IMG/VR virus record: IMGVR_UViG_3300047496_000262
Location: 1-64,000 of that record
DNA from: a virus
Direction: 5' to 3' (one strand)
Length of the DNA: 64,000 bases
Below the pieces are notes generated by a model. The model made no database searches, was not told where the DNA came from, and saw only the letters and a program-made list of their open reading frames with translations. This document shows, piece after piece, positions 35,806 to 45,887 of this stretch; the stretch's first letter is position 1; each line of letters opens with the position of its first letter. Both the position numbers and the translations under genes were made by a program.

Positions 35806-35916
35806 AGAGATCCAGAAAACAATGCTTCAAATACCGTCAACAGACCTCAATATATGCAGGTCAGATCCAAAAATGCCAAAACGGTCTTTTGTATATCCGG
35901 AAAATGCCAAAACGGT
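35666..35916. promoter_or_regulatory. GCCAAAACGGT repeats in the AT-rich region
   Basis: AAATGCCAAAACGGT at 35871-35885 and 35902-35916 (31 bp apart) and CCCAAAACGGT at 35666-35676. Same core as the pair upstream of the XRE regulator at 28179-28215, so these are likely binding sites for one protein controlling this region. Confidence 0.6.
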
Positions 35917-35946
35917 ACTTGTATGTTACCCGTAGGGGGCAGGGTT

Positions 35947-35992
35947 GGGTAATATTATTACCCACTTGTCGCGCTTACGCGGAATATATAAA
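35947..35992 (+). promoter_or_regulatory. 17-bp palindrome and promoter-like element
   Basis: GGGTAATA-T-TATTACCC (35947-35963) is a perfect palindrome. Directly after it TTGTCG (35966-35971) is followed by TATAAA (35987-35992) at a short 15-bp spacing. TCGCG-CTTA-CGCGG (35969-35982) fills the spacer. It points to the plus strand, where only repeats lie until 37.8 kb. Confidence 0.5.
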
Positions 35993-36059
35993 AAATGGGG
36001 CGAAGGATCCAGAATCAGTCCACGATTCGCGTTGATGATAGAGATCTACCTTAGCTTCG

Positions 36060-36780
36060 AGGTCTGGATCTATGGCGGGCGGTAGCAACACCTCCCCCTA
36101 CCCCCTCCACCCCGCGCTCGCTGGCGGGATCGGCGGAGCGGCGCTGGTGGCGCGCGCGGCTGGTAGGCGATCGCCGGCAGCGGCCAAGCGCTGGCAGCCG
36201 CGGCCCGCGCTCCGTCGGTCGCGGTGGGCCCGTTCCGCCGCGGCTACAGGGTAGCAGGCGGCTGCAGCCTCGCCGTGCTGGCGACTGGCAGGATCAGGCC
36301 AGGGTGGCGCGGGCAGGCCTCGCGGTGCTGCCGACGGCTGGCCCAGCTCGCGCTGGCAGGATCAGGCCAGGGTGGCGCGGAATCGTAATAAATCGCATAT
36401 GGCGTATTATGAAAAATGCTAAGGCATTGATATTGCGCGATTGCACGCGGAACGGGTGCGGCGACACACGCAAGGGTGCGAGAAATCAAGATATAGCGGG
36501 TGTCTAGGTGCTGATCGGAGCGGAGATGGTCGGATCAGCGGCTGGCGCAGCTCGCCTATCGGGTGGCGCAGGCCTCGCGGTGCTACCGATCAGGCCAGGG
36601 TGGAGCGGCTGGCGCTGGCGGGTGGCGGCAGGCGCTGGCGGGTGTCGCCGATCAGCGGCGGCAGGATCAGCGGCGGCACGGTCGGAGATAGAGCTGGCAG
36701 GCCTCGCGGTAGCGTCGCCTCGCGGTGCTACCGATCAGGCCAGGGTGGAGCGGCTGGCGCTGGCGGGTGGCGGAGATGGT
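36060..36780. repeat. GC-rich direct-repeat region without genes
   Basis: Built from repeated phrases. A 56-bp exact direct repeat (36573-36628 and 36718-36773) starts CCTCGCGGTGCTACCGATCA. A 26-bp phrase starting CTGGCAGGATCAGGCCAGGG occurs at about 36287 and 36352. Many GCTGGCG and GCGGCAGG copies lie between. All frames give Gly/Ala/Arg low-complexity products. A short AT-rich island (36380-36510) separates two halves. No coding gene supported. Confidence 0.7.
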
Positions 36781-43395: not shown

Positions 43396-44163
43396 TTGCC
43401 TTATTCACCGAAATTCGGGCGCGGCCTGTGGCGGCCCTCGCTGATGGCGCTGACCGCCGAGGGCGATCCGCCGGCACCGGCCGGCGGCACCCCGGCCCCG
43501 CAGCGCGTGATCATCGAACACCAGCATGCCGCCCCGCCGACGCCGCCCGCGCCACCCGCCCCCGCGGCACCGCCCGCCCAGCCTGCGCACACCAAGAGCA
43601 TCAGCGATTACGAGCGCGATATCGCCGATGCCCGTGCCGATGCCGCGGCCAACCGGATTTCGGCCCGGAATGCGACCGAACAGGTGCAGGCGGCGCAGGC
43701 CCAGATTGAGCAGATCCGCCAGGAAACCGACCGCCGGATCGCCGAGGCCACGACGCCGCTGACCCAGCGGCAGACCAAGTTGCTGGAACGCCTGTCGATG
43801 ACCGAGCTAAAGGCCGAAGCGGCCAAGGCCGGGCTCGTCGACATGGACCTGTTGCCACTGATCGACCGGTCCAAGATCAGCGTTACCGATGACGGCGAGG
43901 TGACCGGCGTGGCCGAGGCGGTGGCCCAGTTCAAGCAGTCGAAACCCAGCTATTTTCAGGCCGCCACCACCGGCCAGCCCGCGCCGGCTTCGCCGCCCGC
44001 GCCCCAGCCGCTTCCCCGGGCCACGGGCGCTACCACGCCACCGCCCAATCCCACCCAAACCCCGCCCAGCACCGATGTCAGGGGCATGAACCGGGCCGAT
44101 TACGCCGCCTTTAAGCGCCAGGAGATCCAGCGCCTGACCGGCGTAACCACCGCACGGCGATAA
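43396..44163 (+). CDS. Capsid scaffold protein
   Basis: 255 aa, TTG start 43396, GAAGGAGATCAGCG upstream. A Pro/Ala-rich leader (APPTPPAPPAPAAPPAQPA) is followed by a coiled-coil (residues 75-125, RISARNATEQVQAAQAQIEQ), a helical core (MTELKAEAAKAGLVDMDLLP) and a basic Pro-rich tail. The order portal, scaffold, capsid and the coiled-coil point to an assembly scaffold. It lacks a recognisable protease domain; the HslV-like protein could supply that. Confidence 0.75.
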   Translation: MPYSPKFGRGLWRPSLMALTAEGDPPAPAGGTPAPQRVIIEHQHAAPPTPPAPPAPAAPPAQPAHTKSISDYERDIADARADAAANRISARNATEQVQAAQAQIEQIRQETDRRIAEATTPLTQRQTKLLERLSMTELKAEAAKAGLVDMDLLPLIDRSKISVTDDGEVTGVAEAVAQFKQSKPSYFQAATTGQPAPASPPAPQPLPRATGATTPPPNPTQTPPSTDVRGMNRADYAAFKRQEIQRLTGVTTARR

Positions 44164-44516
44164 ATGTAACGGTATTACACATAAATCGGGAACAAGCGGC
44201 ACTACGATCTGGTTGAAGTTCAAGAAGTTGTAGTTGCCGCCATCCCTGGAAGATGTTAATCCCCGAAATAAGAGCCGCTATCAGGGACAGGTGCCCGCAG
44301 GCGGACGGTCAGGTACCCGACGTTCGATAAGGCCATAGAAGCCCAAGTTCGAGCCCCGGCGCTTCCCGGGTTACCATACAGCCTCTGAGGTAGAGCCTCC
44401 GAGTCCCGGCGCCCGCGTTTCCGCGAGGCGAGCCCGTCCGGGATGGGCCAGGAGCCCGAAAGCCGAGATGCGCCAAAAAGGCGTGTCCTTGATCGTCTTT
44501 CTCGGAGATAGCTTCC
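44164..44516 (+). ncRNA. Structured leader RNA of the major capsid gene
   Basis: No gene between scaffold and capsid, but dense secondary structure. (a) GCGGC+ACTAC / GTAGT+GCCGC (44196-44205, 44230-44240, one bulge). (b) TCCCGG / CCGGGA (44404-44409, 44438-44443) enclosing CGCC-CGCG-TTTC-CGCG-A-GGCG (44410-44430). (c) CCGAGA / TCTCGG (44463-44468, 44500-44505) enclosing GCGCC-AAAAA-GGCGT. The last arm covers half of the capsid Shine-Dalgarno GGAG (44504-44507). Read as an untranslated regulatory leader or separate RNA; no known class recognised. Confidence 0.65.
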
Positions 44517-45887
44517 ATGGGCTCGTTTACCAATTTCCCGACCGCGCTCGTTCCGATCCTCCAGACCGGCTTTCTGGAGCGCGAGTTTGAAGAGGGGCTG
44601 GATTCAGTCCTGGCCTATCGCCGCGAGAACCTGGAAGAGACGGTGCCGGTCCGCATCGGCGAGACCATCACCCGCACCAGGACGGGCCGCAAGACCCCGA
44701 TCTCCACCGCTATCACCCCGGCCAATAACACCGGCCTGGATAACGGCCTGACCTCCACCGACGCCGCGGTCGAGCAGTACAGCTTCACCATGCAGCAGTA
44801 CGCCGACACGACCGACGTGTCGCTGATGGATGATCTGGCCGGCATCGCCAACAACATCATCCGCGTCGCCCGCAATAACGGCGTCCAGGCCGCCCAGTCG
44901 CTGGAGCGCATCACCCGCAAAAAGCTGTTTTCCGCGTATCTAGGTGGCAACAGCCGGGTGCGCACCGATCTGGGGGCTTCGACCACGACCTCCTGCCATG
45001 TCGACGATGTCCGCGGGTTTCAGACGGTTCTGGTCAACGGCGTGGTCACCGCTGTCAGCGGCACCAATACCCTGACCGTGACCGAAACCAATGTCGGCGG
45101 CGCCGGTGTAAACCAGAACCTGACGGTGACCGGGTTTACCATCGACGGCACCAATTCATCGTCCTGCCCCGATGGCGTGTCCGGCACCATCACCTTCACC
45201 ACGGCCACCGCCCCGGTGAACGGCGATTCGCTGATCGCGCTGAACGCCGCGCAGATCATGCGCCCGTTCTCCCACGTCACCACGGCACAGATGACCGGTC
45301 AGGACGTACTGACCCTGGGTCTGGTCGAGGATGCGCTGGCACGGTTGCGCGATAACGCGGTGCCGCCGATGGATGACGGCACGTTCCATATCATCCTGGA
45401 CAACACCTCGATGCGGCAGCTTTGGGCCGATCAGGATTTCAAGATCCTGTATGCCGGCCGCAAGGATGCCAGCGAATACCGCGACGGCGATGTCATCATG
45501 CTGTTGGGCATGACCTTCATTCCGACGACGGAAGCCTATGTCCAGGTTGCCAATTCGTCCGCCGCCACCGGCTATTCGGCCAATAACGTCCGCGTGCGCC
45601 GACCGATCGTGCTGGGCGCGGAAGCCACCATCCAAGGCAATTTCGAGGGGCTGGAGCATTTCCTGGCCCGCGAAGGGGTGAACGCGATCGGCGAGGTCTT
45701 CATCGCCAACAACATCGCCCATATCATCCGCCCGCCGCTGGATCGGTTGCAGCAGACCCTGTCGCAGACCTGGGACTGGGTCGGCGATATCGCGGTACCG
45801 ACTGACACCACAGCGACCACAAACGTGATTCCCACCGCTACGAACGCCCTCTACAAGCGCGCGATCATCCTGGAGACGGCTGGTTAA
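44517..45887 (+). CDS. Major capsid protein
   Basis: 456 aa, start 44517 with GGAG nine bases upstream inside a hairpin. N-terminal MGSFTNFPTALVPILQTGFL, long E-loop-like segment, LDNGLTSTDAAVEQYSFTMQ then QYADTTDVSLMDDLAGIANN, and FHIILDNTSMRQLWADQDFK fit an HK97-fold capsid of the large-virion type (P22/N4-gp56-like). A Thr/Gly-rich insertion (residues 165-240) is probably a surface domain. It is the highest-expressed gene expected of the module. The size is above the simplest HK97 forms, consistent with the insertion. Confidence 0.88.
   Translation: MGSFTNFPTALVPILQTGFLEREFEEGLDSVLAYRRENLEETVPVRIGETITRTRTGRKTPISTAITPANNTGLDNGLTSTDAAVEQYSFTMQQYADTTDVSLMDDLAGIANNIIRVARNNGVQAAQSLERITRKKLFSAYLGGNSRVRTDLGASTTTSCHVDDVRGFQTVLVNGVVTAVSGTNTLTVTETNVGGAGVNQNLTVTGFTIDGTNSSSCPDGVSGTITFTTATAPVNGDSLIALNAAQIMRPFSHVTTAQMTGQDVLTLGLVEDALARLRDNAVPPMDDGTFHIILDNTSMRQLWADQDFKILYAGRKDASEYRDGDVIMLLGMTFIPTTEAYVQVANSSAATGYSANNVRVRRPIVLGAEATIQGNFEGLEHFLAREGVNAIGEVFIANNIAHIIRPPLDRLQQTLSQTWDWVGDIAVPTDTTATTNVIPTATNALYKRAIILETAG

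Follow-up and report, generated by a model that had tools for sequence, protein, structure and literature searches.

A conserved, covarying leader RNA with recurring hairpin loops upstream of the major capsid protein gene in a clade of tailed phages

We describe a conserved, covarying structured RNA, absent from Rfam, that lies just upstream of the major capsid protein (MCP) gene and occupies positions 44299-44457 of the window, by which we mean the whole stretch of DNA analysed, 64,000 bases of the 79,848-base virus record IMGVR_UViG_3300047496_000262. Sequence comparison revealed a covarying core, repeated hairpins with YAGRN loops, constant attachment to the 5′ side of MCP and membership of one tailed-phage clade. 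On these grounds the RNA is very probably a cis-acting leader of the capsid mRNA, and we infer that it controls translation of that mRNA and perhaps its stability too. It is defined here as a new RNA family with a probable role in translational control. Our best overall explanation, a conserved cis-acting 5′-leader RNA that would regulate capsid mRNA translation through a switch, is one that we hold with evenly divided confidence. If this is right, a new family of structured RNA accompanies the gene that phages normally express most heavily, and with it comes a small loop motif that recurs and in which base 1 covaries with base 4. Tailed phages would then offer a natural and compact example of capsid supply under RNA control. 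With its coordinates and compensatory changes, the family is defined precisely enough for reporter testing in a laboratory strain. Below, L numbers denote the loci and leaders compared and G numbers the viral records searched.

The late module of the window runs from a portal-type protein through several small genes to the scaffold and, across a gap of 353 bases, the major head protein. The scaffold-type ORF (43396-44163) matches PHROG 194, head scaffolding (E 8e-14), and the MCP gene (44517-45887, + strand, ATG at 44517) matches PHROG 1357 (E 3e-23). A first-pass annotation of this DNA had remarked on the large scaffold-capsid gap, and with both flanks identified by these profiles the gap stands at 353 nt (44164-44516, + strand), with a 5′ part, to about 44298, that is not conserved. 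Immediately 3′ of the scaffold stop codon, at 44165-44179, lies a palindrome-like TGTAACGGTATTACA that could be an operator. The same annotation had seen no convincing reading frame in the leader, and our frame test agrees: when the longest frame in the 250 nt that precede MCP was compared with shuffled sequence, P was 0.29 in the window and at least 0.10 in 18 of 19 leaders, with L025 at P 0.03. We rejected a hidden coding frame because no frame was consistent across the 19 leaders. An Rfam search, which the annotation had also proposed, was run with Rfam 15 at the gathering threshold and gave no match in the whole window or in L002, L003, L005 and L007. The best sub-threshold match in the leader was c-di-GMP-II-GCG (16 bits vs 47.9 required, E 5.7), and identity with a known Rfam RNA was rejected because nothing reached the gathering score. 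The GOLLD and ROOL models did not match in the window, and no tRNA or tmRNA was found in it.

From 5′ to 3′ on the + strand, the RNA in the window consists of P2, P3 with an inner stem, an H-type pseudoknot, P5, P7 and P6, followed by the MCP ribosome site. The first four elements (P2-P3-pseudoknot-P5) form the conserved core at 44299-44407. P2 (44307-44317) is a GGU-CAGGU-ACC hairpin with a YAGRN loop, and its top pair types in six leaders are GC:5 and UA:1. P3 (44322-44354) has an outer stem GUUCGA/UCGAGC, an inner stem GGC/GCC and a 3′ AAGU. Of the two pseudoknot stems, S1 is CCCGG/CCGGG (44355-44370) and S2 is GCU/AGC (44361-44382), the latter being only 3 bp long in the window, where it is weak and 3/5 hand-read positions pair, and strong in relatives. 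The P5 hairpin (44383-44403) reads CUC-U-GAGG-UAGAG-CCUC-C-GAG and its 3′ arm is complementary to the Shine-Dalgarno region. Beyond the core, P7 (44404-44443) is a UCCCGG/CCGGGA stem enclosing a hairpin, with a similar stem hand-read in L001, L006, L002 and L025, and P6 (44444-44458) is a UGGGC-CAGGA-GCCCG hairpin of a kind also found in L001, L029, L037 and L173. P6 contains a Shine-Dalgarno-like CAGGAG 13 bases 5′ of an ATG at 44468; the 40-aa frame that begins there overlaps the start of MCP in a different reading frame (44449-44590). The MCP Shine-Dalgarno GGAG is at 44504-44507; before the capsid start of L002, L003, L004, L005, L007 and L025 a G-run (GGGG/GGGGG) replaces it.

Evidence for the core came from two covariance models. 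Model R1 was built from L002, L003, L005 and L007, which align by sequence alone (alignment A3), and model R2 from L001 and L006 only, with the window left aside. R2 scored 63.8 bits (E 6e-15) at 44299-44407 of the window, where all pairs of the model are standard pairs, and this was its sole match at E≤10 across the entire 79,848-base record. Further R2 matches, all at the MCP leader, were obtained in L178 (1.4e-8), L005 (1.3e-5) and L007 (0.0015), while R1 found L006 (7e-8) and L025 (0.0018) outside its own training set. R1 scored weakly on L178 (E 0.31) and on the window (E 9, over part of the core); it missed L001, and R2 missed L002, L003 and L025. Since R1 matches L006 and R2 matches L005 and L007, the two subtypes constitute one family.

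Covariation was assessed in both alignments. In A3, a structure of 28 pairs, those of S1 and S2 among them, has 92.9% of its cells paired and two-sided changes in 12/28 pairs, a number that 0 of 500 shuffles equalled, and slid controls pair at 35-45%. The bulk of these changes fall in P3 (4/6 pairs) and in S2 (6/6 pairs, 95.8% paired). In the six leaders matched by R2, whose alignment (A9) was fitted to the model structure, 99.1% of cells are paired and two-sided changes occur in 13/20 pairs (0/500 shuffles, slid controls again far lower), including 5/6 pairs of the P3 outer stem and 2/4 pairs of S1. The first-pass annotation had named a lack of covariation and a coding frame conserved across homologues as outcomes that would speak against its reading; covariation is present in both sets and no such frame is conserved. 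Reading seven members by hand, we found the P3 outer stem fully paired in 7/7, with 0/2000 re-dealt arms as good, and for P7 819/2000 re-dealt arms paired as well; because the hand-read arms were picked for pairing, these re-dealt shuffles flatter the stems, and the A3 and six-leader tests are the fairer ones. L025 has lost or altered P3 and retains the pseudoknot and P5. Thermodynamic folding of the whole window leader gave a structure more stable than shuffled sequence (z -2.6; 1/100 shuffles as good), and the window core folded alone, as a single sequence, is unremarkable (z -0.64), P5 nevertheless being supported.

Leaders that are otherwise hard to align share five-base hairpin loops of the form C-A-G-G-N or U-A-G-A-N; among all pentaloop hairpins found, no other loop types are as frequent as CAGG and UAGA. 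The window has three such YAGRN hairpins, at 44307-44317, 44387-44399 and 44444-44458. Sixteen leaders, selected after reading and with the hairpin-less L035 kept as a miss, contain 27 YAGRN hairpins against 0.6 expected, the maximum in 200 shuffles being 4. Under the strict rule at least one hairpin occurs in 16 of 20 leaders, a set that also includes L035, and none in the other 4. Among loops with a central AG in these 20 leaders, C..G was counted 24 times, U..A 8, C..A 2 and U..G 0 (Fisher 2.5e-6, an optimistic value, since related leaders do not count as independent observations at matching places); bases 1 and 4, the Y and the R, thus covary as a pair would. In contig stretches from seven records, the window included, three YAGRN hairpins cluster within 250 bases in the MCP leaders of G000 and G001; other clusters, at 36247-36357 of the window and at G008 2838, lie in GC-rich sequence and were taken as chance. 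The former belongs to a GC-rich intergenic stretch of the window (35900-36720) that carries imperfect direct repeats of 22-28 bases (e.g. 36285-36312 = 36353-36380) and no convincing gene, where YAGRN-like hairpins generally were taken as chance.

The RNA goes with the capsid gene. MCP searches of IMG/VR and bacterial genomes recovered viral contigs that form a close clade (MCP identity about 55-81%) and many distant loci (about 38-47%), the distant set including bacterial genomes, mostly of Acetobacteraceae and other Rhodospirillales. The closest named phages in the annotated collection, Komagataeibacter phages phiKX1/2 and Streptomyces phage Kromp, have an MCP identity of just 32-38%, and a DNA search of annotated phages found no relatives of the window locus or of the L005 and L001 cores; one short leader match in this search was judged chance. 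We read MCP upstream regions in batches of 19, 23, 13 and 5 loci. Most members of the close clade have a long leader, and at the distant loci no such RNA was seen and the scaffold-MCP gap was short where readable. Run on 16 viral records, R1 gave matches at E < 0.01 in six (G002, G003, G005, G006, G008, G016), one per record and each at the MCP leader, with weaker matches being noise. The gene 5′ of the leader is scaffold-like in the window, L002, L029, L034, L039 and L155 and a different one elsewhere, so it is the capsid gene that the RNA accompanies. Directly 5′ of the capsid leader in L005, at 1787-2320, is an ORF whose C-terminus we take to resemble IS200/IS605 TnpB.

On an MCP tree of 33 rows, the presence of the RNA required 4 changes against 10.8 with shuffled labels (0/500), the label having been set partly by hand in that L033, L025 and L175 were called RNA-bearing by eye without a strict YAGRN pentaloop. 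Inside the clade the close relatives L031, L032 and L283 are without the RNA, which is therefore dispensable for such capsids. Bacterial genomes yielded 0/385 R1 matches at E≤0.001 under strict filters of limited sensitivity. R2 was run on 22 of 54 genome loci with a distant MCP and gave one match (E 0.0075), which we judged to be chance after reading the 400 surrounding bases. Scanning with a degenerate pattern recovered two real members among the 80 loci listed (L339 = L002, L354 = L007); by our reading, most of the matches listed were coding sequence resembling an unrelated phage structural gene, and a scan so flooded says little about how far the RNA has spread. A pattern for the P5 flanks picked out 15 stretches, of which five are family members (L425, L427, L431, L434, L436), with L425, L427 and L431 near-copies of one another, and the others look unrelated.

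The first-pass annotation had offered riboregulation of capsid production or, alternatively, a phage ncRNA in its own right. Given a conserved, covarying RNA 5′ of the capsid gene, that was the right class of answer; the stem mechanism put forward with it found no support. A CCGAGA/TCTCGG stem (44463-44468/44500-44505, + strand), which covers the GG of the GGAG, was suggested as possibly hiding the capsid ribosome site. This stem and a bulged hairpin (44196-44240) are indeed present in the window, but by eye neither recurs in relatives, and the bulged hairpin falls outside the conserved part; L001 has a different 6-bp stem, CCGAAG/CTTCGG, at its ribosome site. Predicted openness of the Shine-Dalgarno in the window was 0.39 vs 0.37 with shuffled leaders, and of 19 leaders, three (L001, L034 and L178, the window not among them) had a Shine-Dalgarno clearly less open than shuffles. 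We therefore rejected CCGAGA/TCTCGG as a conserved feature; the fold that relatives share, at 44299-44457, is another.

A different pairing emerged at the same site. The 3′ arm of P5 complements the ribosome site, CUCCGAG to CUCGGAG in the window and as a 13-pair helix with one bulge in L006. In tests of this match, which had been spotted by eye beforehand, the P5 arm ranked 3/220 among segments of the whole leader against the Shine-Dalgarno in the window, 6/227 in L001, 1/174 in L006 and 1/145 in L178, with predicted energies against its own Shine-Dalgarno of -15.1 kcal/mol in the window and -23.7 in L006. Control ribosome sites from the same and related phages (n=255) bound as well in 3.9% of cases for the window, 24% for L001, 0 for L006 and 8.6% for L178. 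The pairing was not significant in the five other core-bearing members examined, L002, L003, L005, L007 and L025 (P 0.09-0.77). We regard it as a suggestive lead confined to the four window-type members, namely the window, L006 and L178, and L001, where it is weak.

Upstream signals differ among members. A sigma-70-like promoter scoring at least 9.3 of about 12 precedes 10/19 leaders, that of L037 overlapping the hairpin region, and in 5/19 (L002, L025, L039, L155, L175) it is clearly above shuffles (P ≤ 0.06). No promoter-like sequence stands out by the same scoring in the window or in L001. Intrinsic-terminator-like hairpins lie 5′ of the leader in L002 and L004, and the window has no terminator between the RNA and MCP. 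Promoters and terminators are thus inconsistent across members; in some members the leader is likely to be the 5′ end of its own MCP transcript, and in the window it may be. In L005, a promoter-proximal CAGG hairpin (the P1 hairpin, about 2454-2475) is followed by ATTTTTAG and scores as intrinsic-terminator-like, a possible attenuator.

The mechanism that we favour, a switch built on P5, could operate as follows. With the core folded, or held by a reader of the YAGRN loops, P5 would stay closed and leave the ribosome site accessible. Opening of P5 would let its 3′ arm (in the window, CCUCCGAG) pair with the Shine-Dalgarno (CUCGGAG), and capsid synthesis would be shut down. Candidate effectors are a host RNA-binding protein and either of two phage proteins, capsid or scaffold, in unassembled form. 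We consider this particular P5/Shine-Dalgarno switch possible, though our judgement leans against it. In a more specific form, the YAGRN hairpins would dock one of the phage's own shell proteins, capsid or scaffold; the capsid mRNA would in this way gauge how much of that protein is unassembled and repress itself when assembly lags. This form is speculative and improbable. If it were true, a tailed DNA phage would have an mRNA that senses capsid at several sites, and the YAGRN loop, in which a Y-R pair closes an A-G turn and one base is left free, would be a new RNA loop motif.

Several other accounts of the leader were weighed. MCP is normally the most abundant phage protein, and a leader could act constitutively, its structured 5′ end protecting an abundant mRNA from decay and offering a ribosome standby site with no sensing at all. 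The five members with a good sigma-70-like promoter just upstream fit this account, as does the long 5′ UTR of phage SW1, which influences mRNA stability according to the accessible part of that report (PMC4762005). However, a plain stabiliser would have no need of a pseudoknot with conserved loops or of repeated loops of the same sequence, and the window and L001 are without a standout promoter, which makes a purely constitutive leader somewhat unlikely. Processive antitermination of the put type, where nascent RNA would modify RNA polymerase and so let it pass terminators in the late operon, would suit a set of stem-loops with recurring motifs that in several members comes soon after a promoter-like sequence, and in L002 and L004 after a terminator-like hairpin as well. 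Yet the RNA of the window and others sits mid-operon, right before MCP and not at the operon start, with no terminator in the window for it to overcome before MCP, and we think antitermination improbable.

The RNA might instead be a separate phage non-coding RNA, cut from or made beside the capsid transcript and acting in trans or as a particle component. A complex conserved fold of about 160 nt would be in keeping with this, as would L025, which keeps the pseudoknot and P5 when P3 is lost or altered; but the RNA always abuts the MCP ribosome site while its other flank varies, and in the window no terminator marks its 3′ end, so that we rate a separate RNA as quite improbable. That the leader has no function, being chance hairpins in a GC-rich spacer or a hidden coding frame, finds a point in its favor in the unexceptional folding energy of the core alone (z -0.64). 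Against it stand independent covariance-model matches, covariation, 27 vs 0.6 YAGRN hairpins and the lack of a consistent frame, and we give this account hardly any credence. A cis-acting leader of the capsid mRNA remains the reading we prefer.

How does this leader compare with known systems? As in translational riboswitches and ribosomal-protein leader operators, a core is followed by a hairpin whose 3′ arm may be able to pair with the Shine-Dalgarno, a likeness that the pairing results make suggestive; unlike those, the present RNA has no Rfam match and no metabolite-linked gene here. The HK022 put RNA is a set of stem-loops near a promoter at the start of an early operon. Compared by description only, our RNA resembles put in having stem-loops near a promoter in some members, and differs in being placed at the capsid ribosome site and not at an early-operon start. 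GOLLD and ROOL are large, complex structured RNAs linked to phages, as described in the accessible parts of the sources (PMC12286853; phage link PMC9241854), whereas the present RNA is much smaller, always at MCP, without a tRNA in the window and without an Rfam match. Filamentous phage SW1 likewise has a long leader, a 5′ UTR that influences phage mRNA stability and so has a post-transcriptional effect; SW1 is a ssDNA phage, and the accessible part of its report describes neither a pseudoknot nor a hairpin family (PMC4762005). The phage-linked RNAs named in the accessible parts of four further sources (PMC2864571, PMC8040213, PMC9004378, PMC9241854) do not match ours, and our literature search, with most subscription papers outside its reach, found no recognised structured RNA at a tailed-phage capsid gene. 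The leader of T4 gene 32 serves as an autogenous translational operator, with an H-type pseudoknot placed 5′ of the ribosome site from which the controlled gene is translated, and a 2010 review, in its accessible part, calls it perhaps the only viral pseudoknot in translational autoregulation (PMC3014915). As described there, the T4 element belongs to a gene for a ssDNA-binding protein and has an A+U-rich single strand and no repeated hairpins, whereas the present leader belongs to a capsid gene, has several YAGRN hairpins and has a ligand that is at most putative. What the two share is a pseudoknot in a phage mRNA leader, here with S1 and S2 supported in relatives and S2 weak in the window, and by this analogy we take T4 gene 32 to be the closest working parallel.
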